Positions 37,703 through 58,801 of a stretch of DNA of 64,000 nucleotides are shown here, in pieces. The stretch covers positions 1 to 64,000 of the forward strand of contig JAFSRN010000003.1 of NCBI GenBank assembly GCA_017446095.1, in the 5' to 3' direction. The notes beneath the pieces were generated by a model. It was not told the origin of the DNA. It saw nothing but the letters and a program-made list of their open reading frames with translations, and ran no database searches. The position numbers were made by a program, and so were the translations under genes. Source of the DNA: Eubacterium sp. (GTDB taxonomy: Bacteria > Bacillota > Clostridia > Oscillospirales > Acutalibacteraceae). Position 1 is the stretch's first letter; each line of letters starts with the position of its first letter.

Positions 37703-38017
37703 TTACTGCTCCGGCTCAAAGTACTCTACTTCGTACTTTTCCTCAACTTTAGCCATAAGGATATCGGATACCTGCTCGTATTCCATATCGTTCTGGATTT
37801 CCTCAAGGTACTCATCGCCGTTTTCGTCCTCAATAACTTTGAGGATAATCACTTCAAAGTCAGCCTCAACGATTTCCTCATCGTCGTCGCGGTACTCGGT
37901 GATTGCAACGTAAACCGCATCCTCGGTTTCATACCTTTCAAGAAGTTCAAAAAGTATTTCGTTTCCGTTTTCGTCTGTTACCGAAATAATGTCCGGCTCA
38001 TAAATTTCGTTATCCAT
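37703..38017 (-). CDS. DUF1292 protein
   Basis: 104 aa, very acidic. The family pattern is clear: IISVTDENGNEILFELLERYETEDAVYVAI, then DFEVIILKVIEDENGDEYLEEI and a C-terminal helix. DUF1292 proteins are small beta proteins widespread in Firmicutes, often near ruvX and fur-like genes; function unknown. ATG 38017 follows AAGGAGAAC on the minus strand. It stands alone here, divergent from the large RNA gene on its right. Confidence 0.9.
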   Translation of the reverse strand: MDNEIYEPDIISVTDENGNEILFELLERYETEDAVYVAITEYRDDDEEIVEADFEVIILKVIEDENGDEYLEEIQNDMEYEQVSDILMAKVEEKYEVEYFEPEQ

Positions 38018-38108
38018 ATCTGTTCTCCTTTAGTATCTTGCCTATATTATATTAAATTAAGATAAAATAGTCAATAGGGAAGCGGCGTTTAGTAAAAACT
38101 TACAAAAA

Positions 38109-38127
38109 TTTTCAACAATGTTGAAAA
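38109..38127 (+). promoter_or_regulatory. palindrome upstream of the large RNA promoter
   Basis: TTTTCAACA, one base, TGTTGAAAA: perfect 9-bp arms, ending 6 bp before the -35 box. Well placed for a regulator of the RNA gene. Confidence 0.5.
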
Positions 38128-38133
38128 AAACTA

Positions 38134-38162
38134 TTGACAAACGCTAAAAGATGTGTTATTAT
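38134..38162 (+). promoter_or_regulatory. strong sigma-A promoter of the large RNA
   Basis: Consensus TTGACA, 17 bp, TATTAT (five of six). Transcription should start about 38168. Confidence 0.85.
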
Positions 38163-38543
38163 TAGGTTGAACTTAAGAGAGGGCTCAGAATTAAGAAGTG
38201 GAGATTTGTTAGAGCCAAGGTTCAAAATTTAATAAGGAGGCTGAATACTATGATGAAACTTCAGATTGATGGTTCAGCCACCTGTACAGTATCCCAATAG
38301 AGATAACGAGATATTTTGGTCGACAGAGGTAAAACGGAATTACCTACGGATCACATGATTGTTAAAGAAGAAAAAGCGTTATAAGCAGGGATTGGAAAAA
38401 TACTTACAGGTGTCGACTAAAATTTAATACTAAAGTTATATAAGATTATTTTCCTGCTGATAATCAGAGTAGAGATACTCTATAAATAAATTGGATAGAG
38501 TTTATCAATTTATTTAATAAAGAAATATTATGAGGATATACCA

Positions 38544-38670
38544 ATGTTCTAGTTAGTACGAACGAATACCAACAATCCTTAAAGAAAGGAAAACTCCGAT
38601 GTTCTAGTTAGTACGAACGAATATCAACAATCCTTAAAGAAAGGTATAATCCAATGGGCTAGTCAGATTA
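38544..38670 (+). repeat. 55-nt tandem repeat inside the large RNA
   Basis: Units start at 38544, 38599 and (partial) 38654. Each has ATGTTCTAG or ATGGGCTAG, GTTAGTACGAACGAAT, and a CCTTAAAGAAAGG mini-hairpin. Units are contiguous, so this is a repeated RNA module and not a spacer array. Confidence 0.8.
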
Positions 38671-38722
38671 ACTGCAATATAATTGTAGAGGTAAAGTCCA
38701 AAAATGTACAAGTAAATAACAG

Positions 38723-38751
38723 CTCCCGACCAGTAGGTCGGGAGTTTTTTT
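38723..38751 (+). terminator. terminator of the large RNA
   Basis: Perfect stem CTCCCGACC/GGTCGGGAG, AGTA loop, seven T's. Confidence 0.93.
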
Positions 38752-38779
38752 GCTTTTTAGACAAATGTACATAAAAATG

Positions 38780-38809
38780 TTGACATTATAATATATTTTA
38801 TGTTATTAT
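38780..38809 (+). promoter_or_regulatory. sigma-A promoter of the 1439-aa LRR gene
   Basis: TTGACA, 18 bp, TATTAT, downstream of the RNA terminator. It shows that the RNA is a separate unit rather than a leader of the LRR gene. Confidence 0.7.
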
Positions 38810-38840
38810 AAAGTGAATAATTATTTTAAGGAGTGATTTT

Positions 38841-41800
38841 ATGATAAAAACCACTAAAAAAGTAATCGCTTGCATTTTGTCGATGCTTATGGTGATTACT
38901 TCAGCTCCTTTCATCGCACTTGCTGACGAGCCTATTGATGAGCTCAAAGCGGCAATTACTGCTTACGAAACAAAGATGGACGGAACTGTTTACACAAATA
39001 TGGAAGCGGCGTATACCTCATACTACAACGCTGTAAAAGCACGCGACGCTTACATTAACGGTATGAGGACTGAAATCGATCTTGCACCGATTACAGCAGA
39101 CCTCACCACAAAAACTGCCGCTATGCAGGCGTTCACACCGAGCTTTACTACGGTAGTTCCCTCGTTCCATGGCGACGACCTTACTGCTTACGTTGGCACA
39201 GCGTACAACAACGTGCTTTATTCACCGCAGGTTGACAACGCTACCGCTACAGCAGAAAACACCAACGCAAAAGTTAAGTACGAGCTTTTCTACGCACCTA
39301 CAGTTCTTGCGTATGACGGCACAACACAGCTCAGAATGCCTGTTATGGTAAGTGCACAGCTTACTTATTCAAAAACAAGGTATCTGTACGGCAGTTATCC
39401 TACCGTATCGTCAACCGATATGGCAGACCATCCTGATTTAGCGCTCATAGGCCGCTGGTATTCAGGCGATAACGTTACCGGCTGGAGTGACAGCAACAAC
39501 GGTAAGGATGGTAACTGGAGTTTTGCTGCTCAGCTTGCTGCTAACCTTCAGACCTTCGGTTACAACAGCGATACCGGCTACGGCTCAAACCAGTCTACGG
39601 ATACACGTTCACAGGAACTTCCGCAGTACGGCACACTTGCGTGGTGGCAGGGCAGAATGTTCTACGCTGCAAACATTATGAATGTTAACACCACATTTGC
39701 AGACGGCGAGTACCTCAAGACTTATCAGCCGCACTGGTATATCTGCGCAAGTGACAGCCCTAACTCAACTTACGACGCAACTATGATGCGTGGCTCAAAC
39801 ATCATTTATGTAATCAACTACAAGGCGTATACAGACGCACTTGCAAACAATGCCGCAAAGCTGGCAACTATCTATAAGTACAACAAGACTCCCGACCGTG
39901 CAGAGGATCTTCTTGAAGCTTATGATACAGCTACTTCATTCAACATCAATTCCTACAATTTCGAGGATTCATCAAAGATTGTTGAGGCTGCAGACCTGAT
40001 TCAGACACTTTGCGAAACACTTGCAGACAAGAACTCAAAGCTTACTGAGTCCAATATGTCCGACTATAACAAGCTCTTTAATGCTATTGATGCATATGAT
40101 GATATTTACTTCGCAGGCAACGCAGACGGTCATTACGACGCTACTACCTGGGATACGTTCTCATCAAACTTTGAAAGAGCAGTAAACGCTGCAGGCAACG
40201 TTTATGAAAACGGCTATGTTGCTGAATTTGATAATAAGTCCATCGCTTACATCGCAGAAGCGCTTGACTTTATGCTTGATAAATCAGGCGACCTCGGAGA
40301 CAATGCTACTTACGACTTTGACAGCTCAACAGGCGTTGTAACAATCAGCGGTACAGGCGCCCTTGATGATTACACCGGCACTGACAGCCCGTTTGCAGGT
40401 AACACAAAGATTACAAACGTTGTTATTGAAGACGGCGTTACCTCAATCGGCGACAATATGTTCAACGGCTGCACAGGTCTTGAGAATGTTACTATTCCTT
40501 CAACCGTAACATACGTTGGCGAGAGCGCATTTGAGGATTGCTCTTCGCTCACAACAATCACTGTTCCTGCAGGCGCAACATACGGCGATAACGCATTCAA
40601 CGGCTGCACTTCACTTGAGAGTGTTGAGTTCGGCAGCGGCGAGATTGCTTCCAAGGATGAAGCTGACCACAACGCGCCGTGGTATCAGCCAAGCGTTAAG
40701 GAAATCATTATCACACCCGGCGTTACCAAGATCGGTGAGCACGCATTCAGCGACGCTACTAATATCGAAAAACTTACCGTACCTTGCGATATCCCTGTTA
40801 ACACTGCTTCAAACACAAATGCGTTTGAGGGTATGACAGGTCTTAAGTACATCACAATCACACCCGGTACTACCGGCACAATGATTAACTGGGGCGAAAA
40901 CAGCTATTATAAGCGTTCACCCTGGTACGGCAACAGAAATAATCTGGAAATGCACGTAACCGTTCAAAACGGCGTACAGAATATCTCAAGCCACGCATTC
41001 TATGAGTGCTCTAATATTGACGATATCAACCTTCCGGGTTCTATCGCATCTGTCGGCGAAAGAGCATTCTACGGCTGTTCTGCACTTGACGACATTTACT
41101 TCTACAATCCTGATTGCGTAATTTACGATTCAGCATTCACGCTTCGTGAACTCATCAAGATTCACGGTTATGATAATTCAACCGCACAGGCTTATGCTAA
41201 TAAGTACAACAGAGATTTCATTCTTATCGGCGACCACACACATAATTTTATACCTGCTGTAACCGCACCTACCTGCACAGAACAGGGTTATACTACATAC
41301 ACTTGCTCTTGCGGTAATTCTTATACTGCGGATTACACCGATGCAACAGGTCACGACTGGGACGAAGGCACTGTTACAGTTAAACCTACCTGCACAACAA
41401 CAGGTACAAAGGTTTACACCTGTAAGAATGACGCAAGCCATAAACGCAGCGAAACTGTTGAAAGAGTTGCCCACACTTGGGAAGCAACAAGCACAACCGC
41501 AACCTGCACAACACCGGGGATCACTAATTATACCTGCGCAGTTTGTACTTCAACAAAAACTGAAGTTGAGCCTGCTCTCGGCCACGATTATATCGGCACA
41601 GTAACGGCACCTACCTGCACAGCACAGGGCTACACAACTTACAACTGCTCACGCTGCGAAGCTACTTATGTAGGTAGTTATGTTGCTGTTCTCGGTCACA
41701 ACTATATCAGCACTGTTGTTCCTGCTACCTGCAGCGATTTCGGTTATACAGAGCATAAATGCTCACGCTGCCAGGATTCGTATCAGGACACATTAAAGCC

Positions 41801-43528: not shown

Positions 43529-43806
43529 ATACACACAATATTGAAATGCGTTGACAAGAACAACGCCGCTGTTTACTTGATTTCAGAGAACTGCCGGTTG
43601 GTGCAAGGCAGCACGGGGACGCAGCGGATATCCTCTTTGAGCAGATGTGCCGAATTTAGTAAGCACATACGGGTTCTCCCGTTACAGAGATAGCATATCA
43701 CTTACAATCGTAAAGTATGCAAGAGCGCACTGTTTATCAGTGAATAAGAGTGGTACCACGGTATTTATATCGCCTCTTAACCCTTCGGGGTTAGGAGGCT
43801 TTTTTG
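43529..43806 (+). promoter_or_regulatory. T-box riboswitch leader (probably isoleucine)
   Basis: Stem I: GCCGCTG pairs with CAGCGG; the apical part has AGAGAACTGCCGGTTGGTGCAAG. The T-box core is AGAGTGGTACCACGG (43748-43762). The intrinsic terminator GCCTC.TAACCC/GGGTTA.GAGGC with T's is at 43772-43805. Uncharged tRNA should bind TGGT with its ACCA end and favour read-through. The specifier loop after GCAGCGG reads ATATCC, in which ATC (Ile) is the best codon candidate, so the amino acid is an inference. It controls the four-gene ferredoxin oxidoreductase operon starting at 43826. Confidence 0.88.
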
Positions 43807-47301: not shown

Positions 47302-47482
47302 GAAGATGAAATAAAATAGGCAAAAACTTTCAACTTTTAGCATTATTTCTTGTGTACAATGCACAGAGTATAGGCTGCAAGATAAGGTCAGTATCGTTGC
47401 GGTTAGTGTTTTACGGTGTGTTAATTATTTAACAATCTTGACAAAACAACCTGCATTGTCGCAAATTGGAGGAGGAATTTAT

Positions 47483-50400
47483 ATGAGTACAAAATCAAGA
47501 ATAGGCAAAAAATTCTTAGCCATAGTACTGTCCGTACTTATGGTTGTTACAATGTTGCCAACATTTGCGATTACAGCAAATGCCGCAGTAAAATGGAATG
47601 TTGTAGCATCTTCTGATTTTACGAAAGCGACACTTCAAGTAGAAGGCGGAGCGCTCTCTAATGTTCCAACATACAAAGGCGGCAATCCTATTTCCTGGAA
47701 CACAGTTGTATGGACCGGAACAGGAAATGCATATAAAACATCGGAAGCCTATGGTATTCCCGACGGATATATGTATATGAGTGGCTACGGAAACAACACG
47801 GCATTTCCAATACCAAAGAATTCTTCTACTATGAAAATTGATTTTGGATTTAGCTTCAATTCTTCATATTCTATAGATGCTTCAAGTGGTATTTATGATT
47901 TTTTGAAGTTAAACTATGATACAACACTTTTTGGTGATATTGGAAGAGACCAATACGGATATTGTGTGTTTGAACAGGGTGTAGACGGCAAAGCGTATTC
48001 TTTTGGTCAAACACTTGCACCTGCAAGCCCTGCAAGACAGACATACTATACAAGTAGTAGCCTCTCTGCCGGTGTTGAGTATCACTATATACTTGAATAT
48101 GTAGAAGGTCAATATGCTTGCGCTTATATTACCGATGCTGCCGGAAACTATATTCAGGAGCAATTTAATACAACTGATTCCACTTTGTTAAATCAATTCT
48201 ATCGTGGCTTGCACGAATGGAATGGTATTACAGGTATCCGTATGGGTGACTACAAACAAGGTGATTATCTACGCGGTCTGGAATACAGAAATATTACATT
48301 TTACACAGGTAGTGTAACCGGAGGCGAAGCATCTGTAAACAACCTCAGGTCTTTAATTGAAGATTATGAGGGTATAATGGCGAGCGGTAGTGTATATACC
48401 AATATGGCCTCTGCATATAAAGCGTATGTTGATGCAAATGAGGCTTATGATGCTGCTGTGTACGGAAACAACACCTCTAAAGTGTCCGACGCGTATTCTG
48501 CTCTGTCAAGCGCTATTGCAAATATGAAAACCTGGACGCCTGCGACATTTACCGCAAAGTCTTACCATTATGATGACGAGGCTGTAAATGGTTACTCAAA
48601 TGTTGTATATGCTACAAGTGGCGACAGCGGAATGTTTGAACCTGACGATTATACTGAACCTGGTGCAACGTATGTTAAACTTTTTCTCCCTAAGATTACA
48701 GTTCTTGTTTATGATGGAAAGAATGAAGTGTCTTCGCCAATCGTTGCAGAAACCAAGCAGCATGATAAGGCAGCAGTTAGTAAACAAAAGATTTGCTATA
48801 TAGCAAGTCCAAATGATACTGTATATTTTGACCAAACGTGGAAAGGTTATACTGAAACAGATTGGAAAAAATGGCCAACAACTACTACAAATCAATTTGG
48901 TTCGTTAACATCACACGGGACTTCGTACATGTTTGACACCACTAATAAAAACACACCGCGATTCTGGAGAAACAAATTAGTGTATCATGGCACGGGTAAT
49001 TCTGCTAATTATTATGAAACTTTTAGTAATTTCAATTTTAGTAGTTATGCGTATTATAGTAATTGGGGTGATAAGTACGGAAGTAAAAGTATTGCGACAA
49101 CATTTACTAACTACGTTATCAATTACAAGCCTATTATCAGCGATGTCAACACACTTAAATCACGGCTTTCTGCTGTCGATGTTTCAAATTACAAAGAGGG
49201 CGGTCTTTCCTCAATTATGATTGCATTTGACGCGTATACAAGTGATAGCGTTAATCCAAATAAGTATGCGTATTCAAATGTATCAAGCGATGTTTCTGCG
49301 TGTGCAACTGAAATAAAAAATGCTCACAATAATTATGCTTCTGAAACAGTTGGTGCCGCTGACAATGCAAACAATTACATCAAACTTCGCAGTTATTTAA
49401 CTGACGGTTTGAGTGGTACGTTTGATTTTGGTAACGGCAATGTTACATTAACGGCAAAACAGATATTTGAAGATTCTGCATATAACGCAGATAACCTTGC
49501 AAATTACGGTGACTCAACAACCGGTTTCTACAAGGCTTATCTTGACGCTGTCAACCATATGGCGGCTCTGCCTGCTACAACCAGCGCAAGCGATTATGAT
49601 GGAAGCACAGCGGCTTCGCTTGCAACGGCGCTGAAAAATGCATTTGATTTGCTTTCTGTTAAAGCGCCTATTGATCCGCCTACATTCACAGGTCAGGCAT
49701 ATATAGGCTCAACAAATACTATCACAATTAATAACCCTTCCGTTGCAGACGGTGCAACTGTTCACTATTCTATCGAGTATACTAAAACCGATAATACAAA
49801 AGTGACAGAAAACGGTACTTTCTCAACCGCAAGCAAGGATATCACACTGTTTGCTGCTAACGCTTCTTCGGTTATATACAAGTCTGCGCAGATTACCGCG
49901 TATGCAGAGAAAAACAACAGCCCGACAGATAATGTTACAGCATCGTATACATATCTGCCTGCGCCTACAATTATTAATGACCACACCTCGGCGGCGCTCG
50001 AGGATAATACTGTGTTTGTAAACTATACGGTAAGTGTAACATCAAACAGTACAGCTCCGAATCCGACATTTGAGTACAGCTTCAATGGCAGTGCATGGTA
50101 TCCAATGCCTGCACACCTCAATCCGTTTGGCAGCGGCGCAGCGCAAGGCGACAGTCCTGCTTATGATAACTCAAATCTTGATAAGGTTACGCTCTATGTA
50201 AGAGAAAAGTATAATATATCCTTTGAAACAACTTCAAAAAGGATTATCAACAGAGCTACTGCGCCTACTATCACCGCTGCAAGTGAGTATGTTGATGAAA
50301 ACCACGGTTTTACTGTTAATGACCGTGACACCGTACATGGTACGCTCAAATTTGAACTTTCGACTGATAACAGCAACTGGGTTGAGTTTGATTACAACAA

Positions 50401-53400
50401 CGAGTTGGACAACGGTATAATTAAACCGTTTAACATTATCAGTCCTGCTTCAAGTCAGACTGTTTATGTAAAGGCTCGTTCTTACAGAAACGGTGACTAT
50501 TCAGAGTATTCTGACATCAAAACTTTCCACTACCTGTCACGTCCTGCGGTAACCTTCGGCGGCAGCGCGCTTGCTGATAACGCAATCGTTGCAGACGACG
50601 GCACTATTACCGTAACTAACACAAGCGGCGCTACCGACGGACTTAAGTACAGTATTGACGGCGGTTCAACTTGGACGGCTATTGCAAACGGTGCTTCATT
50701 CTCGCCGTTTACGCTTAATTCCACCGCTACAAAGCTCTCAGTACAGGTTAAACAGGAAAAGGACGGCTCTACATCGCCGATTTATTCTGCAACAATTTAC
50801 AATAAGCCGACTGCGCCCACTATCATTAGTGAAAATGAGTTCCTTGATAAAACTCACGGCGTTACGGCTTCGTTGCAAGACGGTTCTGATAACACCGCTT
50901 CAACTCTTGAAATCAGTACTGACGGCTCAGCATTCACAGCTTATACGGGCAAGGTTTATCCGTTTAGCGGTGTTACCGACGAAAACTCAAGACCTACCAT
51001 AACTTATTACGCCCGTGCTAAAAGGGTTATTGACGGCGTTACGGCATATTCCGACGTTGTTGATACCGGAACGCTGTATTATCTCTCACAACCGAGAATT
51101 ATGGACGCCTCCGGTTTAAGCGATATTACCGCAAATCAGGCTCTGCTTGAAAGTGACACCGTTACTCTTCATCCGCAAAGCGGACATCTCGGTGATTTGA
51201 AGTACAGTTATGATGGCGTTTCGTGGAGTGATTACTCAGCTGCTATTGCACCGTTTGCAGCTAATTCTACAAAGCTCAGCGTAACAATATACGCAAAGCA
51301 GGTTAGCGGTGCTTGCGAATCTGCTGTATATTCGATTAAGGTTGTTAAGAACGACACATTCTATATCTACTCCTACACCTCGGGCAAAACACCGCAGTAC
51401 TCGAGCAGAGAGTTCAGTAACAGCTCTAAATTGTTTGTTTCAACAACCGCTGTTGTGGCAGACGATATTACCAAGTACGGCGCTAACAGTAAGTATCTTG
51501 ACAGCATTTACTATAAAGTCACGGTTGACGGCGAACCTGACGATACTCTTTATCATTACGACAATGACGGTATTGATATTGCAACGCATACAAGCGGCGA
51601 ATACACTGCGCCCGACCTGACCGGCGCAAGCGTTGTTAAGATTCAGGCGTTTATCGTTGAGGATGATGGCAGCGGCGGACTTGTATCGTGCAGGGAATAC
51701 GCAACGCAGACGTTCTTCAACACCGTAAACTACAGTGAAGATGTTATGCACGAGTCGTTTAACAATGCGTCAGTCAGCGGAACAACGCTTACTTTGAGTG
51801 ACCGCTCAACTGCAACGCTGCTCGGCGGCGCAGGTACGGCTTCAATCGTTGAGGGCGCGGGATACGTCGACGGCAACAAGAATTCGCCCGACTGGCGTAA
51901 TAACGTGCTTAAGATTAATGCAAATTCAACCGCGCCGGGCAACAGCATCCAGTTTACAAACAACCCGCTTGCTGATCCCAAGGCGGCTGCAGCGGCTAAT
52001 ACAAGCGGCGTAACAATTTCGTTCTGGCGTTATCTTGAAAAGGACGGCGTTTGCGCTAACCTTGGTACATCCGGCGACCCGACAGGCTATCCTTGGCGCA
52101 ATGCTATTGCGTTTGATGACGCTTGGCAGAATCACGAGGGATATTACCTTATTGAAGTCAACGGCACTAATTCGCGCTGCGTTACAAATAACTTGGATTA
52201 TTATGACTATGCTCAGGAGAATCAGGATCCAACAGGTCACGCAGCGGGCAACGCACGCGGCAACTGGGTAAACGTTGTAATTACGATTGACCCGAACAGC
52301 GGCGTAATGCTTTATACAAATGGCGAGCCTCACAAGATGAAAGCAGGTTATCCCAAAAAGATTGGAACTACTTTCTCCGGCAAGAGCGACGCTGTTGTTG
52401 CACAGGAAATTCTTGAGTTTATTACAAGCAATACTACAAGATTGCTGTTTAACTACGGCGAGGTAAAAGAAGGTAACGACTTCGATATGTACCTTGACGA
52501 TGTTCGCATTTACACCGGCGTTAAGTCGCAGGTGGACATCAACAATATGTACATTTCAAGCGATGCCGACGTTGTGTCTGATTTAACTTCCACTTCGCAC
52601 GATCCGACCAATGTTACGGTTTACACGCTTAAGCACGATGTTACTTACACTGCTTACAGCGAAGCAAATGCGGCTAAATCAATTACTATCCCTGCAGGCA
52701 CAACTGTTGGTCAGGAAGTTATTGATTACTGTAGCCTCAGCCCGATTCCGGGCGGTGCCGATGTTTCTGCTGTTGATGAGTACTCATTCGGTACCGGCAT
52801 GACGATTTACCACAAGAACAAGTCGAACGGCAAGTGGGAAGTTGTTGGCGACGATCAGGGCAGATGCGGTTACCAGAATCAGAAGCTGTTTGGCGGCGAT
52901 TATGAAACTACACTTAATGAAGCGCTTTCTTACGCCGCAGAGGACGACAAAGTCGGCGCAGGCAAGCTCGTATGGGCGCCGCACGTGATGTTCAACCTTT
53001 TCAATGCAAAGTGGACTTATTACGGTTCTGCTTCGTCGTGGAGTTCGCAACATTCTGCAATATTTGTTTGCGACGGTGCGGAAAACGGCAGTATTGAAGG
53101 TCCGTATACTTACAGGCAGGTTGTTTATAAATCCAACGGTCATCCTAATGCAATCGACCCGTGTTGCTACTACGCGTATGACGGCAATAATAAACCGATT
53201 ACAAATAATGTTTATATGGCGTTTGGCTCATGGGGCGGCGAGAATTGTATAGCGCTTAAAACGCTCTATGCTGACGGCGACGGTAATAATTTCACAACAG
53301 CATTTGATGACAACAGTACTAAATATCTGTGCCATGGTATTAACAGCACGCTTGAGGGTGCTTCTGACGGCAGCTCAGGTGAGGGTGCATACATCACTTA

Positions 53401-56400
53401 CGAAAACGGTTATTATTACTTGTACGTTTCTTATGGACAGAATACAGGTTCTTACCTTGAACGTGTGTTCCGTTCAAGCAGCCCGACCGGCGGATTTGCA
53501 GGCTACAATGAAGTAGCTGCGCTTGATAACGAAACGCATAAAACGCACGGCGGTCAGGTTCTTGCACCGTTTGACTTGTCGAATTACGACTACACAATGG
53601 TTTCCACAGGTCATAACTCGGTTTACAAGACTGTAAACAATTACGGTCAGGTTGTAACTGTAAACTCGGCTCATGCAAGACCGCTTGCTAACGCTGATCA
53701 CAGCTGGCAGGCATTGCCGGACGGCGCACTTGCAACACGCCAGAGTGAGGTAACAGGTAATATTAACCTGCTTAATCAGGTGGCGTATAACGAGGATGGC
53801 TGGCCGGTATTCATGCCGTTCCAGTACACAGGTAACGACAAGGTTAAGTTCGCTGACGGTGAAATCACTGCAGAGAAAATCGAAGGCATTTACGGCGCTA
53901 ACGACCTGCAGAATACCGAGTACTACAACTATGCAAAAGAGTACATGTATACAATCATCAAGGACGAAACCGACCCGATGCTTGCTTATGAGTACGGTAC
54001 AGACGGTTCGGGTGCAGTGTTTAAGGATTACATCAGGCTTACCCGCGTAACAGAAGGTCCGAACACAGGCACAGTTTACGCAACCTACTATACTGATAAA
54101 AACGATATGGCAGGTTCAACGCTGTACAAGGGCGTAGTCGGCACTCATAACGGACAAATCTGCATTTCCATGGTTTGCACGGAAGACTATGAGTACACCT
54201 GGACTTACCGCATCAGCGAAATTCCTAAAACAGAGGACGTTGACGCACTTGGCGACAGCGTATCTATGGACGGCGTTCTTTATACGCATAAGCCAAAAGA
54301 TTCTTATGCTATGTACGGTCGTGAGATTTCCTGCGACTTCGATTACGGAAAATCAAGCCTGCACCAGGGTGAGCGCTGCACAACTGTTACAACAACTTAT
54401 CCTGCAAAGATTGACCTGTCAGACCCGGCGGCGATTTACTGCTTGTCCGATGAAGAGCTTTGCAAGACAGGTGAATATGCAGGCGGCGATTACAGCCTGA
54501 CGGCACTTAATGATAACAAATGGTACGACAAGGCAGGTAATAAGTATACTGATGCAGAGGCGATTGCCCGCAACGGTCTTGGTACCGGCGGCGCGTCGGA
54601 TAAGCTTAAACATCTCTACGGCGTAACCGGCTACGTTTCGGACTACTACTTTGATGCTGATTCGGGTAAGTACCGCGATAAAGGTGTAACGCTTATCATC
54701 GGGTACACGGACATTACAAGCGGCAAAAATTATAGCGAATTTGAATTCTGCTACGTAATGGCTAACCCTGCAATGGCACATACAATTCAGGGTATCAGAA
54801 ACCAGTCAAAAGATGGTACATCCAGAAAAGCAAGTCAGTTGCTTTATGATAGATTCCAAGGATCTTATGGCCATGCTTCTGGAATTATATCTGAAGTTTC
54901 TAAACAAAGCGCTGTAAACGCAGGTAGTTCTTCAACTGGAGAACCTATTATGCATGGTACTGGTGTGTTCAATTATGCCGGTACTTGGGGTAATTCAGAG
55001 TCTGTATCTGCTTCGTACGATAGTCCTTCTGCAATGGCAAGTAAGTTTAATTTCTTTGAAAGCAATGTGGGAATTAACTCTGGTTCGTACGGAATGATTG
55101 AACATAATGACACTGGCGAGAACTCTTTTTCAGTTTCATCTAATGTTGTTGATACCGATTATTATGTTGACTATTCTAATACAGATAATTATAAGTCAAA
55201 CAATCCATATGGTCTTATTACTGTTAACGGAAGTGGCAAACCTACAGGTTACTCGTTTGATTTTAAAACTTCGAATATCAAATGGGTTGGTGATAACGAA
55301 GCAGATTTCCGTTGGGGTACAACATCATATATGCTTACAACAGGTGATGCCAAAACTAAACTAACTCTTGATAGCACGTATGATTCTTCAAAGGATTCGT
55401 TTGTAAAAGGTATTGCTTCGGACACTACAAGGTATTCATATGGTAACTATACCGATAGTGAAATGACGGCATTAGGTTACACCGATACTGAGTTTAAGAT
55501 TTCGGGTACTGGTGATTATTGTACAAATTCGAGCCACGGAAGTGCTTCTACTTCAAATCGTAATAATTTACCAAATGCACATACGCTTGGTTTATATAAT
55601 GACGATTTAAAAAAGGTGGTTAATGGATATTTCTATAATAGCTCTGAATATGATGCTGCATATCCAAGTAACGATAACTATACAGCTGGATTAACACGTG
55701 CTCTTCCGGTGGTTAACGCGGGCAGAACTGACACAAATGCATGGAATATGCACATTACCTTTACTGGTAAACAATCTGTTGCTAAAAACAGTGATCCGGG
55801 TGACAAAGAAACTTATCGAGCTGAAAAGTACGCGAACTTTATTTTGGAGCAAGGCGTTATTGTACAGCCTGCAACATATGCAGATGTTTTTGGCGCTTAC
55901 ATTGTTGTTGCAAGATATGTAATATGCGAAGAATCTTACGCATACTACAACATCGGCGTTCACACCTGCGATAAGGGTGCGGCAAGAGCGTTTGCAGATA
56001 ACTACCTGCGCAAAAAACTTGCTGTAACAAAGAATCCCAACGGTTCGGTTAGCGTTAAAAAGAACGCTACCACAGGCGCACCGATTTACCTTGATGAAAA
56101 CGGCGACGAAACTACAAATGTAGACGAGGCTGCAATTATCAATCCGCAAGCCTTCACGCTTAAGTCGTATCAGGATTACATCGACGCGGTTGCTGAACTC
56201 AACTGGTTTGTTAATAATCCTACTAACACCACGTTTAAGGATTACGCTAACAGCGGCTCGAACGCTTCTACAGAGTACACCACTGCTTATACTGCAGGCG
56301 GATCGCCGATTTACAACACTACTACAGCGGGCGATAACATCTTTGATGAAAACGTTAACACCGTTCACACCGACTCGGTTCAGGCTATGCTTATCAATAA

Positions 56401-58801
56401 CGTAATCACTGCTTATGAGAATCTGTTTGAGCAGGCAGATTATAAGAACGCGGCTGACGAGTACGCAACGGTTAAGCTCTTTGACGGCGATACAGAGTCG
56501 TCAACAATTGCAAACGTTGATAAGATTACAATTACCCCGACTGAAGGCGAAGCGCAGATTTACACAAAGGATAACTTCACAGACGATTCCTGGAACTCAT
56601 TTGTAACCCTTATTGTTAATGTATCTTCTGCATTTAACTACAAGTGCGGCGAATCTGTTTCTCCTAAAGATAAGGATTCCTGGCGCCACGTTAACCTTTC
56701 CGGCGCAGAGTACAGGAACCTGCTTAATATCCTGAAGAGTGCAGACGACACTTTGCTTGAAAGCGTGGATATAGAGTCACTTACTACAACCTATAACACC
56801 AAGCACGGCAACGACGCTGCAGGCTCGGCTACAGGTACAGCAACAGGCGGTATATTCACAAGTACGGCTAAAACTGTCAGCGGCACCGAATTTGCAGCAG
56901 GTCAGCAGGTATATACCTTTGCAAGCTGGAACACACTTAACAGCGAGTGCGTTAAGGCGAATGCTTATCTGACTGTAGGCAACGCAAAATACGCACGCAA
57001 TCAGAGCAAAACGATAAGCGGCGCAAATGTGGTGAATAAGGGCGATAATGAGCCTGACTTCAGCTACAAACAGGGTAAATACAAGGTAACAGGCGTTACC
57101 AAGTACACGTTTGACGGCATTAACTTCTACGCTCGCACAATTGATAAAACTCAACGTTCCGACGAGCAGCTTGAAGTAGATGGCGAAAATACTGCTCTCG
57201 GCGGACTGTCACTTGTGGTTGTTGATACCCCGGACTGCTACAATACTTACGACAGCGCAAAGACAATTGTTGATACGCTTGATATGGATAAGTACACCGC
57301 GGCAGGTCAGGAAATTATCACCAACGCTTCAACTACTACAAACAATGCTGTTTACCATACTCTCAACAGTGATGAAGCAACGGCATACAACGCTGCTGTA
57401 ACGGGTGCAAGTCTTGCAGCGGGCGACAAGCTTCGCCAAACTACAACCGGACAGACAGACCCGCAGTCCTCGGCGCTTATGACTGCTATTAACAACGTTA
57501 ATGGCACCAAGGAAAACGGCGAGTATAAGTACATCAAGTACTTCAAGGTTACGTTTAGCAAGGAATACTCGGATACAGAGCTGTATATGGACAGTGAAGT
57601 TCACAAGGTTATGTACGGCGACCCGATTACCGTTTCAATCGACAGTTCTGACAAGATTGTTAACTGGGGTATTTCGATTTACGACGGTGAGTATGCAGAC
57701 GATTTCAGCGAAAAGCCAAGAGCATCGCAGAAGGTATCCAGTGTAATGGGCGGCTCGCTTACCAGAATTGCAAACAACAATATGGCAATCGTTGCGGAAG
57801 TTGAACAAAGCTCTGTTCCAAACGGCAAGATACAGTTCAACATCCTTGACGCTTACGGCAAGCTTAACGATGTAACATACGGCGCGTCGCTCACAAGAAA
57901 CGGCGATGCTATTACATCAAGCACAACGATAGACAATCTCGAGTATCCGCTGCTGATTGACGGTAGTGAGATTTCGCTCAAAGCCGTGCCGTTCTACACG
58001 CAGACAGGCTGGACGATTACCAAAAAGAGCAACACGCTCTTTACAATCAGACCTATCTACAGCGTTGCGGATGTTTATAACATCACGGTTATAGACGACG
58101 GCACCCACACCGATTACGAGAGAAAGTACGATTCCAAGTATTACCTCAATGTATCGGAGAAAAACAGCGCTAAGTTCGCTGCGTGGGCTGTTAAGAAGGG
58201 CGACATGTACCAGATTGCATCGTACAGCAAGAGCTATATGTTCTACGTTTGCGCTAACGAAACTTACGTTCCGATTATCAATGTAGGCACTGCTGAAGCA
58301 CCTTCTTACAAGACTGCTGAAGGCGTTGCGATTACATCGTCCAACATTGACGGCGTAATTACCAAGACCGGCGCCCTTAATGCGGACGCCTTTGTAACCA
58401 ACAAGATTAAAGAGCACTATCCGTTTGTATCTGTTGAAAATGCAAAGATGTCTACAAAGGACACGGTTAACGGCAACTTAAGGTATACTAAAGCGCGTCT
58501 GTTTGTAAGAATTACAGAGGGTTCGGATGCTAAGCTGTCAAGCTATGGCGTGCTGTTCTTCAACGGCAATAACAGTGCTGAAAATATGGTTATTGACGGC
58601 GACGGCGTATACCGCAGAGCGGTTACAAATAAACTCGAAACAGGTCAGTTTACTTACACATTATCCAATACCAAGAACGGATTCTCACAGAACGTAACGT
58701 TCAGAGCATATGTAAACTACGACTTCGATTACACCGCAGGCGGCACGACAGCTTCCATCAACGGACTTGATTACTCAGACATCGCAATTGCAACAGTCTG
58801 A
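47483..58801 (+). CDS. giant secreted protein with LamG-like and GH43-like domains (3772 aa)
   Basis: ATG 47483 behind GGAGGAGG; signal peptide FLAIVLSVLMVVTMLPTFAITANA. Approximate order: jelly-roll-like N-terminal domain (30-270), FIVAR-like helices (277-353), an unnamed domain shared with the protein at 38841 (353-640), Ig/chitobiase-C-like beta units (730-1290: YSIDGGSTWTAI), LamG-like (1420-1700) and a GH43-like five-blade propeller (1770-2440: SFGTGMTIYHKN, WAPHVMF, NAIDPCCYY, EGAYITYENGYYYLYVSYG). Then comes an AT-rich stretch (2435-2818), helical segments, and the C-terminal module seen at 1-712. The expected HDP catalytic aspartate before the first blade is not evident, so arabinan hydrolysis is uncertain. 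Probably a plant-polysaccharide-binding or -degrading surface protein. Confidence 0.88.
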   Translation: MSTKSRIGKKFLAIVLSVLMVVTMLPTFAITANAAVKWNVVASSDFTKATLQVEGGALSNVPTYKGGNPISWNTVVWTGTGNAYKTSEAYGIPDGYMYMSGYGNNTAFPIPKNSSTMKIDFGFSFNSSYSIDASSGIYDFLKLNYDTTLFGDIGRDQYGYCVFEQGVDGKAYSFGQTLAPASPARQTYYTSSSLSAGVEYHYILEYVEGQYACAYITDAAGNYIQEQFNTTDSTLLNQFYRGLHEWNGITGIRMGDYKQGDYLRGLEYRNITFYTGSVTGGEASVNNLRSLIEDYEGIMASGSVYTNMASAYKAYVDANEAYDAAVYGNNTSKVSDAYSALSSAIANMKTWTPATFTAKSYHYDDEAVNGYSNVVYATSGDSGMFEPDDYTEPGATYVKLFLPKITVLVYDGKNEVSSPIVAETKQHDKAAVSKQKICYIASPNDTVYFDQTWKGYTETDWKKWPTTTTNQFGSLTSHGTSYMFDTTNKNTPRFWRNKLVYHGTGNSANYYETFSNFNFSSYAYYSNWGDKYGSKSIATTFTNYVINYKPIISDVNTLKSRLSAVDVSNYKEGGLSSIMIAFDAYTSDSVNPNKYAYSNVSSDVSACATEIKNAHNNYASETVGAADNANNYIKLRSYLTDGLSGTFDFGNGNVTLTAKQIFEDSAYNADNLANYGDSTTGFYKAYLDAVNHMAALPATTSASDYDGSTAASLATALKNAFDLLSVKAPIDPPTFTGQAYIGSTNTITINNPSVADGATVHYSIEYTKTDNTKVTENGTFSTASKDITLFAANASSVIYKSAQITAYAEKNNSPTDNVTASYTYLPAPTIINDHTSAALEDNTVFVNYTVSVTSNSTAPNPTFEYSFNGSAWYPMPAHLNPFGSGAAQGDSPAYDNSNLDKVTLYVREKYNISFETTSKRIINRATAPTITAASEYVDENHGFTVNDRDTVHGTLKFELSTDNSNWVEFDYNNELDNGIIKPFNIISPASSQTVYVKARSYRNGDYSEYSDIKTFHYLSRPAVTFGGSALADNAIVADDGTITVTNTSGATDGLKYSIDGGSTWTAIANGASFSPFTLNSTATKLSVQVKQEKDGSTSPIYSATIYNKPTAPTIISENEFLDKTHGVTASLQDGSDNTASTLEISTDGSAFTAYTGKVYPFSGVTDENSRPTITYYARAKRVIDGVTAYSDVVDTGTLYYLSQPRIMDASGLSDITANQALLESDTVTLHPQSGHLGDLKYSYDGVSWSDYSAAIAPFAANSTKLSVTIYAKQVSGACESAVYSIKVVKNDTFYIYSYTSGKTPQYSSREFSNSSKLFVSTTAVVADDITKYGANSKYLDSIYYKVTVDGEPDDTLYHYDNDGIDIATHTSGEYTAPDLTGASVVKIQAFIVEDDGSGGLVSCREYATQTFFNTVNYSEDVMHESFNNASVSGTTLTLSDRSTATLLGGAGTASIVEGAGYVDGNKNSPDWRNNVLKINANSTAPGNSIQFTNNPLADPKAAAAANTSGVTISFWRYLEKDGVCANLGTSGDPTGYPWRNAIAFDDAWQNHEGYYLIEVNGTNSRCVTNNLDYYDYAQENQDPTGHAAGNARGNWVNVVITIDPNSGVMLYTNGEPHKMKAGYPKKIGTTFSGKSDAVVAQEILEFITSNTTRLLFNYGEVKEGNDFDMYLDDVRIYTGVKSQVDINNMYISSDADVVSDLTSTSHDPTNVTVYTLKHDVTYTAYSEANAAKSITIPAGTTVGQEVIDYCSLSPIPGGADVSAVDEYSFGTGMTIYHKNKSNGKWEVVGDDQGRCGYQNQKLFGGDYETTLNEALSYAAEDDKVGAGKLVWAPHVMFNLFNAKWTYYGSASSWSSQHSAIFVCDGAENGSIEGPYTYRQVVYKSNGHPNAIDPCCYYAYDGNNKPITNNVYMAFGSWGGENCIALKTLYADGDGNNFTTAFDDNSTKYLCHGINSTLEGASDGSSGEGAYITYENGYYYLYVSYGQNTGSYLERVFRSSSPTGGFAGYNEVAALDNETHKTHGGQVLAPFDLSNYDYTMVSTGHNSVYKTVNNYGQVVTVNSAHARPLANADHSWQALPDGALATRQSEVTGNINLLNQVAYNEDGWPVFMPFQYTGNDKVKFADGEITAEKIEGIYGANDLQNTEYYNYAKEYMYTIIKDETDPMLAYEYGTDGSGAVFKDYIRLTRVTEGPNTGTVYATYYTDKNDMAGSTLYKGVVGTHNGQICISMVCTEDYEYTWTYRISEIPKTEDVDALGDSVSMDGVLYTHKPKDSYAMYGREISCDFDYGKSSLHQGERCTTVTTTYPAKIDLSDPAAIYCLSDEELCKTGEYAGGDYSLTALNDNKWYDKAGNKYTDAEAIARNGLGTGGASDKLKHLYGVTGYVSDYYFDADSGKYRDKGVTLIIGYTDITSGKNYSEFEFCYVMANPAMAHTIQGIRNQSKDGTSRKASQLLYDRFQGSYGHASGIISEVSKQSAVNAGSSSTGEPIMHGTGVFNYAGTWGNSESVSASYDSPSAMASKFNFFESNVGINSGSYGMIEHNDTGENSFSVSSNVVDTDYYVDYSNTDNYKSNNPYGLITVNGSGKPTGYSFDFKTSNIKWVGDNEADFRWGTTSYMLTTGDAKTKLTLDSTYDSSKDSFVKGIASDTTRYSYGNYTDSEMTALGYTDTEFKISGTGDYCTNSSHGSASTSNRNNLPNAHTLGLYNDDLKKVVNGYFYNSSEYDAAYPSNDNYTAGLTRALPVVNAGRTDTNAWNMHITFTGKQSVAKNSDPGDKETYRAEKYANFILEQGVIVQPATYADVFGAYIVVARYVICEESYAYYNIGVHTCDKGAARAFADNYLRKKLAVTKNPNGSVSVKKNATTGAPIYLDENGDETTNVDEAAIINPQAFTLKSYQDYIDAVAELNWFVNNPTNTTFKDYANSGSNASTEYTTAYTAGGSPIYNTTTAGDNIFDENVNTVHTDSVQAMLINNVITAYENLFEQADYKNAADEYATVKLFDGDTESSTIANVDKITITPTEGEAQIYTKDNFTDDSWNSFVTLIVNVSSAFNYKCGESVSPKDKDSWRHVNLSGAEYRNLLNILKSADDTLLESVDIESLTTTYNTKHGNDAAGSATGTATGGIFTSTAKTVSGTEFAAGQQVYTFASWNTLNSECVKANAYLTVGNAKYARNQSKTISGANVVNKGDNEPDFSYKQGKYKVTGVTKYTFDGINFYARTIDKTQRSDEQLEVDGENTALGGLSLVVVDTPDCYNTYDSAKTIVDTLDMDKYTAAGQEIITNASTTTNNAVYHTLNSDEATAYNAAVTGASLAAGDKLRQTTTGQTDPQSSALMTAINNVNGTKENGEYKYIKYFKVTFSKEYSDTELYMDSEVHKVMYGDPITVSIDSSDKIVNWGISIYDGEYADDFSEKPRASQKVSSVMGGSLTRIANNNMAIVAEVEQSSVPNGKIQFNILDAYGKLNDVTYGASLTRNGDAITSSTTIDNLEYPLLIDGSEISLKAVPFYTQTGWTITKKSNTLFTIRPIYSVADVYNITVIDDGTHTDYERKYDSKYYLNVSEKNSAKFAAWAVKKGDMYQIASYSKSYMFYVCANETYVPIINVGTAEAPSYKTAEGVAITSSNIDGVITKTGALNADAFVTNKIKEHYPFVSVENAKMSTKDTVNGNLRYTKARLFVRITEGSDAKLSSYGVLFFNGNNSAENMVIDGDGVYRRAVTNKLETGQFTYTLSNTKNGFSQNVTFRAYVNYDFDYTAGGTTASINGLDYSDIAIATV

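Follow-up and report, generated by a model that had tools for sequence, protein, structure and literature searches.

Within the 64,000-nucleotide stretch of DNA analyzed here (the window), an RNA gene of ~580 nt with an approximate 5′ end was delimited on the forward strand at 38168–38751, based on a promoter, a terminator and homologues in the genus. The promoter (38134–38162, forward strand) comprised TTGACA at 38134–38139, a 17-nt spacer, an extended TG and TATTAT at 38157–38162. The same layout was present upstream of 56 of the 59 homologues (exceptions L029, L143 and L146); the −35 element of these 56 promoters was TTGACA in 55 and TTGACT in one, spacer length and TG were the same in all, and TATTAT occurred in 40. 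Because the promoter is near-consensus, the RNA is probably abundant. The unit ended at an intrinsic terminator (CTCCCGACC...GGTCGGGAG and a T-run; 38723–38751, forward strand), and a loose scan without shuffle control placed a terminator-like site downstream of all 59 homologues, implying RNA lengths of 456–1076 nt, the longest of which may overshoot. The folding energy of the window RNA was −132.9 kcal/mol, compared with −110.0 ± 7.0 kcal/mol for 100 shuffles (z = −3.27). These data are in good agreement with the consensus promoter, strong terminator and dense folding described in the initial annotation, and together with the covariation reported below they support its picture of a free-standing, highly structured transcript.

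Two neighbors, both separate from the RNA, lie on the reverse strand: a divergent gene for a DUF1292 protein (PF06949; 37703–38017) and, beyond it, a 6S RNA (RF00013; 37264–37455; 48.6 bits vs a cut-off of 46.4). The divergent DUF1292 gene was found 92–490 nt upstream in 56 of the 59 homologues, the other three having less than 130 nt of upstream sequence, and 6S RNA in 8 of 20 loci scanned, some of which were too short or unrelated. On the downstream side, the longest ORF within 900 nt was co-oriented with the RNA in 46 homologues, opposite in 10 and absent in 3. The 56 ORFs fell into 17 blastp clusters, and this variety, with 10 of them running opposite to the RNA, makes a dedicated leader for one gene unlikely; by eye, the next gene in the window is preceded by a promoter-like sequence of its own. 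The nine neighboring proteins scanned belonged to metabolic, surface (LRR) or DUF1292 families and none was phage-like, which, with the fixed locus beside DUF1292, agrees with the earlier placement outside a prophage. A phage link was also considered and rejected: six matches of the module pattern (see below) on viral contigs looked by eye like repeats within protein genes, and a DUF1292 protein scan of viral contigs yielded nothing. Since the DUF1292 synteny is constant and the downstream gene variable, the RNA gene appears to be chromosomal and passed on vertically, and it resembles neither a prophage element nor the leader of a single gene. Elsewhere in the window, a T-box leader (43542–43780) was observed upstream of pyruvate:ferredoxin oxidoreductase-like subunit genes, which would be an unusual T-box target, and a single ORF of 3787 codons spans 47438–58801.

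Distribution and relation to known RNA classes

A DNA search recovered homologues in 30 of 98 genomes (including the window's own), all within the window's genus. A covariance model, R1, built from 171 central positions, matched 61 of 80 genus genomes and 45 of the 51 high-quality ones, with one match each, indicating a single-copy gene. Among 394 sampled genomes of the order, R1 matched five, four of the genus and G068; the latter match (L144, 27 bits) reads as an ordinary protein gene start and was discarded as false, so that the pseudoknotted core was not found outside the genus in this search. The genus includes [Eubacterium] coprostanoligenes ATCC 51222, whose contig NZ_FUWW01000009.1 (76,233 bases) carries the RNA (L079). 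Throughout, the 59 rows analyzed are those with matches at E ≤ 1e-10 in 59 selected sources; of the 61 genus genomes in which a match was found, they represent 59. Near-duplicates were left out, among them L079 as a duplicate of an earlier locus, as were L025 (83.9 bits, an NN assembly gap in the core), L033/L145 (29 bits; same genus, divergent), L100 (24 bits) and L144.

Six high-quality genomes lacked an R1 match. In three of them the contigs ended 109–157 nt beyond the DUF1292 domain match, and the remaining three had no DUF1292 match either. Because contigs end early or DUF1292 itself is missing, the absences are more likely assembly gaps than losses, and no clear loss of the RNA was seen in the genus genomes checked. 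The contigs of three genus MAGs (L214, L215, L216) stop within 157 nt of DUF1292, just before the RNA, and that of L215 ends in apparent conserved promoter-upstream sequence; going by these ends, the locus may be hard to assemble.

A gathering-level Rfam scan of the whole window found no family at its cut-off for this RNA. The initial annotation had put forward a ROOL-class candidate, to be checked with the Rfam models, and a new class should these fail to match. The ROOL, GOLLD, OLE and tmRNA models gave no match for 38000–38860 at E ≤ 10 with permissive filters, there was no gathering-level match to ROOL, GOLLD or OLE in 20 related loci either, and ARAGORN detected neither tRNA nor tmRNA at the RNA locus; the ordinary tmRNA of the genome was located elsewhere (141 bits). 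A match to STnc430 (33 bits vs a gathering threshold of 47) overlapped the terminator and the repeats and was treated as chance. Size, pseudoknot and free-standing transcript would fit a known giant RNA class (ROOL, GOLLD, OLE) or a tmRNA-like RNA, but the blank model and ARAGORN searches, the fixed chromosomal locus without prophage sign and the separate tmRNA leave such membership practically no chance. The RNA is thus not ROOL; sequence and structure models rule out all four memberships, and with no prophage in evidence the RNA is read as a new class, which is almost certainly real.

The folded core

Aligned to R1, an alignment fitted to the model itself, the 59 sequences had 96.7% of cells paired and double-sided changes at 19 of 25 pairs. 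Cells with double-sided changes numbered 243, compared with 72.5 ± 8.0 in shuffles and 16–42 in slid controls, and a plain MAFFT alignment of 38 sequences, the basis of the model, displayed the same pairing alternatives. By these counts the helices covary strongly, and the pseudoknotted core is supported by covariation.

All helices are given on the forward strand. P1 (TTGAAC 38167–38172 / GTTCAA 38220–38225), apparent in the window sequence, is also visible by sight in homologues. H1 (38239–38279) is a GGCTGAA/TTCAGCC hairpin enclosing the Shine–Dalgarno sequence (SD) and AUG of a short ORF, sORF1 (see below); its arms vary yet stay complementary, with at least 5 pairs in 58 of 59 homologues, a weak control given that 69% of shuffles reach 5. 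H2, H5, H4 and H3 form a nested domain. In H2 (CACCTGT 38279–38285, within sORF1 / ACAGGTG 38406–38412), five of six modelled pairs had double-sided changes and 99.1% of cells were paired, and in H5 (CCAAT 38294–38298, at the sORF1 stop / ATTGG 38391–38395) these values were five of five and 90.5%. H4 (ATAAC/GTTAT, 38303–38382) was 99.3% paired and nearly invariant, with no double-sided change and thus no covariation support. H3 (GGTC/GATC and GGTAA/TTACC with loop AACGGA, 38318–38352) had double-sided changes at nine of nine pairs. The core loops at 38303–38351 carry ACGG-type motifs (AACGGA, TACGGA) that recur in the cores of many homologues.

The pseudoknot H6 (38384–38465) pairs AGCAGG at 38384–38389 with CCTGCT at 38453–38458, which sits in the loop of a GATTAT/ATAATC hairpin (38444–38465), and crosses H2 and H5. 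This crossing pair, picked out from the window alone, turned out to be conserved: a complement of at least 6 nt was found in 47 of 59 homologues, vs 8.8% with shuffled partners, and of at least 5 nt in all 59. Seven of the 47 rows match elsewhere, leaving 40 of 59 with at least 6 nt at the H6 site proper. Variants include GACAGG/CCTGTC, TACAGG/CCTGTA and GGCATG/CATGCC. Two other elements of the initial annotation hold for the window and not for its relatives. The 13-bp helix (~38312–38324 / 38411–38423) is present, but the double GTCGAC underlying it occurs in only 5 of 59 homologues, where the counterparts measure 8–13 bp, and it is in competition with H2 and H3a, which covary. Likewise, the window sequence accommodates the H-type pseudoknot at 38477–38515, but a loose search recovered only something similar, with differing sequences, in 19 of 59 homologues, so that it does not count as conserved.

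Short reading frames in the genus and beyond

The transcript had been described as free of usable frames. This does not hold, since it contains a 16-codon ORF with a strong SD and four mini-ORFs, and frames of this kind are conserved; the RNA is therefore not taken as purely non-coding. The 16-codon ORF, sORF1 (38234–38300, forward strand; SD AAGGAGG 38234–38240, ORF 38250–38300), encodes MMKLQIDGSATCTVSQ and stops at TAG. It was open in all 59 homologues, with 10–19 codons behind an SD, ending in TAA (45), TAG (12) or TGA (2), while frames +1 and +2 ended at scattered places; other homologues encode, for example, MDLEPGQTSARIVIQ, MRLEIDNLATCKVSQ and MVDLEPGQTNACSVFR. CC at −3,−2 preceded the start in 47 of 59. 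Across the 44 of 59 usable rows, synonymous changes amounted to 35% in frame vs 29% and 20% in the shifted frames, and no third-position excess was detected (0.43/0.37/0.41). With so weak a synonymous signal and the third-position excess absent, the sORF1 peptide as such is hardly conserved. The 3′ half of sORF1 supplies the 5′ strands of H2 (38279–38285) and H5 (38294–38298), so that, going by the coordinates, reading of sORF1 and folding of the core should be mutually exclusive.

Downstream of the core, the 55-nt repeat noted earlier is visible in the window sequence and consists of mini-ORF modules with the layout SD, a few nt, WCCR, AUG, a few codons and a stop. On the forward strand of the window these are GAGGATATACCA plus ATG TTC TAG (MF; 38532–38552), AAGGAAAACTCCG plus ATG TTC TAG (MF; 38586–38607), AAGGTATAATCCA plus ATG GGC TAG (MG; 38641–38662) and GAGGTAAAGTCCAAAA plus ATG TAC AAG TAA (MYK; 38688–38715), the last with its AUG shifted by 3 nt and outside the counts that follow. 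Selection by SD and CC yielded 143 modules in 59 RNAs, 1–4 per RNA, which are not independent events as the homologue rows are related. A stop directly followed codon 2 in 100 of the 143, and at most 4 residues were encoded in 126. For frames +1 and +2 at the same sites, immediate stops numbered 0 and 0 and frames of at most 4 residues 63 and 34; for the 124 other ATGs of the region the counts were 8 and 42. Module stops were TAA (113), TAG (20) and TGA (10), and the commonest second codons TAC (63), GGC (24), CAC (15), TTC (11) and GAC (10). Codon 2 ended in C in 127 of 143 modules and in T in 6; the C share of C/T-ending codons in 21 window genes was 48%. The last counted module started MY with TAC in 47 of 59 homologues.

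When sites were selected by SD only, CC at −3,−2 was found before 139 of 156 ATGs of the region; among long ORFs that start at ATG behind an SD the figure was 1 of 85, an enrichment that points to a special initiation context. Of 165 motif sites found within the genus, 143 had an ATG directly following WCCR, and the remaining 22 include several shifted ATG or TTG starts. The middle module was a 10–12-codon ORF in 11 of 59 homologues (MRRNFNILIK, MLRKFIWSIK, MIRRFIVFKK, MLRKFIVLGK) and, with a shifted start, in a few more; its residues are conserved and its starts are ATG or TTG, that of MIRRFIVFKK being TTG. Predicted openness of the SD-AUG sites did not exceed that of random windows (0.47 vs 0.49, p 0.71). 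The frame and stop statistics make it likely that the mini-ORFs are translated. The initial annotation had named codon-type conservation or missing covariation as counterevidence to its RNA; the former was found in part, in that in-frame starts and stops are kept (59/59 for sORF1; 143 modules), and the helices covary nonetheless.

Arrays of such modules also occurred outside the genus. Two modules in tandem, used as a search pattern, matched 4 of 394 order genomes (1 of 394 for a reverse-pattern control) and, slightly narrowed, 1 of 291 class genomes (control 0); it missed genomes of the window's own genus in both draws and is therefore of low sensitivity. All five matches read out as arrays: MYKIY, MYI in L160; MKT, MRN in L161; MNK, MNK, MNG, MRK in L162; MNK, MNE, MNG, MRK in L163; and MFR three times, then MTLDIKNEQK, in L178. 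Terminators were seen by eye in L160, L161 and L178. The arrays of L178 (G897) and L161 (G314), from other families, end in a similar ORF (MTLDIKNEQK / MLDIKSEQK) with its stop inside the 5′ arm of the terminator, and this arrangement could be a translation-controlled terminator. L162 and L163 (G139, G323) carry four SD-WCC-AUG mini-ORFs plus MVKIISLLKRKEI or MAMFKFLPKKEI, have no DUF1292 neighbor and adjoin a gene whose product, from its motif, we take to resemble histidine phosphatase.

The divergent side was read at 30 DUF1292 loci of other genera, drawn from 75 genomes with a match, three of the 30 being truncated, and arrays lay beside DUF1292 in two. L201, from another family, has a promoter (TTGACA..TATTAT), sORF1 MDSEKTARYHAGFSIVR, MY, MR, MT, MITFKAATHFGLNII and a terminator; L197, from another genus of the same family, has two AUG-less modules, then MYT, MFIATRIMKTQKKFK, MYS and a terminator. 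L057, located via its promoter, also adjoins DUF1292 and 6S RNA. A relative, L068, showed by eye a long array of GAGTGAGTCCRATG-type modules (MFT, MNIE, MF, MNS, MGK, MFM, MYI). A promoter pattern restricted to TGAACWWAAGRR matched only two genus members among 300 family genomes and says little on relatives. Some modules of L160, L197, L201 and L068 keep GAGTCCR without an AUG; from these modules outside the genus, the SD-UCC element may act without translation. What the arrays have in common across groups is putative initiation sites with early stops, neither the peptide nor the core.

Possible functions and comparison with known systems

Four readings of the array were weighed, of which the capture or sensing of ribosomes appears the most likely, although as the main function it falls short of an even chance. 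Ribosomes would initiate at each module, form at most one to few peptide bonds and terminate, and several ribosomes (or 30S subunits) would thus be tied up on each RNA in brief, futile rounds. The core would stay unfolded while sORF1 is under translation and would fold when free ribosomes are scarce, and the RNA would in this way capture or sense ribosomes. Little would depend on the peptides as such, since the products vary between species (MG, MY, MF, MH, MD, MN, MFR) whereas the initiation site, the early stop and the arrayed layout persist. Two-codon minigenes such as mg2 of the txe leader occupy ribosomes and stabilize their own RNA, as reported in the cited part of PMC8708949. Ribosome capture or sensing is preferred because arrays with early stops are shared between groups and because minigenes are reported to hold ribosomes. 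Several findings count against it, namely the lack of any predicted extra openness at the SD-AUG sites, the weak constraint on sORF1, a core found only in the genus, arrays at just 2 of the 30 DUF1292 loci read from other genera, the co-orientation of 46 of 56 downstream genes, which would also fit an attenuator, and above all the AUG-less modules, which weigh most heavily against a reading by translation alone.

Those same AUG-less modules favor the reading ranked next, which we consider unlikely: an untranslated sponge whose repeated GG-N-WCCR(AUG) binds a protein or the 16S rRNA 3′ tail, the in-frame stops being incidental. The strong nucleotide constraint (the C of codon 2) would suit it, and a duplex calculation allows both GAGG and UCC to pair with the 16S tail; the tail was not found in this MAG, and the 16S pairing idea therefore rests on a tail sequence from outside it. 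What such a sponge leaves unexplained is the in-frame stop after codon 2, seen in 100 of 143 modules with TAA, TAG and TGA all in use and in none when the other frames are read, and an ATG directly after WCCR at 143 of 165 genus sites, several of the remainder having shifted ATG or TTG starts. Somewhat less probable again is a polycistronic micropeptide mRNA, including a 10–15-residue cationic or hydrophobic peptide in some species. The 10–12-codon middle module with conserved residues in one subgroup (11 of 59, a few more shifted) speaks for this, as do MVKIISLLKRKEI, MFIATRIMKTQKKFK and MITFKAATHFGLNII in other genera, but the window lacks such a peptide and offers only 2–3-residue products besides sORF1, the dipeptides vary freely among species, and the coding constraint on sORF1 is weak. 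Least likely of the four, and improbable in our estimate, is a translation-controlled attenuator, in which ribosomes on the last mini-ORF would block the terminator and transcription would enter the next gene. In 24 of 59 homologues 1–16 nt separate the last stop from the terminator arm, in L178 and L161 the last stop is inside the arm, and most downstream ORFs are co-oriented (46 of 56); against this, the next gene varies (17 clusters, with 10 of 56 in opposite orientation), the distance from stop to terminator reaches hundreds of nt in some homologues, and the next gene of the window has its own promoter-like sequence.

Returning to ribosome capture or sensing, we tentatively propose that this is a bacterial RNA new in kind, in which minimal frames arrayed in tandem would do the work and which would be dedicated to trapping ribosomes or sensing their availability; it would be genus-wide and, as an array without the core, present in some other families of the order and class. 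If its frames are translated, the RNA would be a natural case of futile initiation as a function, to buffer, count or hold ribosomes, which is not described in the papers among the matches listed. As the RNA is present in a cultured type strain, the idea is directly testable. No description of such an RNA appeared in the open-access literature at title and abstract level among the matches listed, which is weak evidence of novelty.

Bacteria have few classes of large structured RNA, and what these do is poorly understood; the present RNA carries a functional clue of its own in its conserved arrays of putative initiation sites with nearly immediate stops. It resembles ROOL in being of ~600 nt scale, pseudoknotted and free-standing, the solved ROOL, from cow rumen, measuring 659 nt with the same two traits according to the cited part of PMC12286853. 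That part places ROOL genes in phages or prophages, often near tRNA islands, and mentions no mini-ORFs for ROOL, whereas the window RNA carries mini-ORFs at a fixed chromosomal locus and does not match the Rfam model. A further trait of ROOL is its octameric RNA cage. GOLLD, reported there as ribosome-bound in pull-downs, and OLE are likewise large, ornate and poorly understood; their models are unmatched, the setting of GOLLD is phage, and no mini-ORF array is mentioned for either in the sources as cited. The ORF of the window RNA begins at an SD and AUG and tmRNA models are unmatched, unlike tmRNA, which also unites pseudoknots and a short reading frame in one RNA. Dual-function sRNAs and sORF or uORF motifs share a short ORF on a structured RNA, whereas here there are several 2–3-codon ORFs and not one small protein; of eight uORF candidates in a 50-genome survey (PMC11109978), the two described in the part cited are both unlike this RNA. 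The modules also resemble mg2 of the txe leader, with SD, AUG, one codon and stop and a proposed role in occupying ribosomes and protecting RNA, and 126 of the 143 modules consist of SD, AUG, 1–3 codons and a stop. A minigene leader also has a constant downstream gene in the same transcript, which was not found among the 59 homologues, all with a terminator-like site. Minigenes of the mg2 type, as far as the cited part of the txe study goes, precede a gene on one shared mRNA and have their effect in cis, whereas the window RNA ends at a terminator, with its modules arrayed and a structured core attached.
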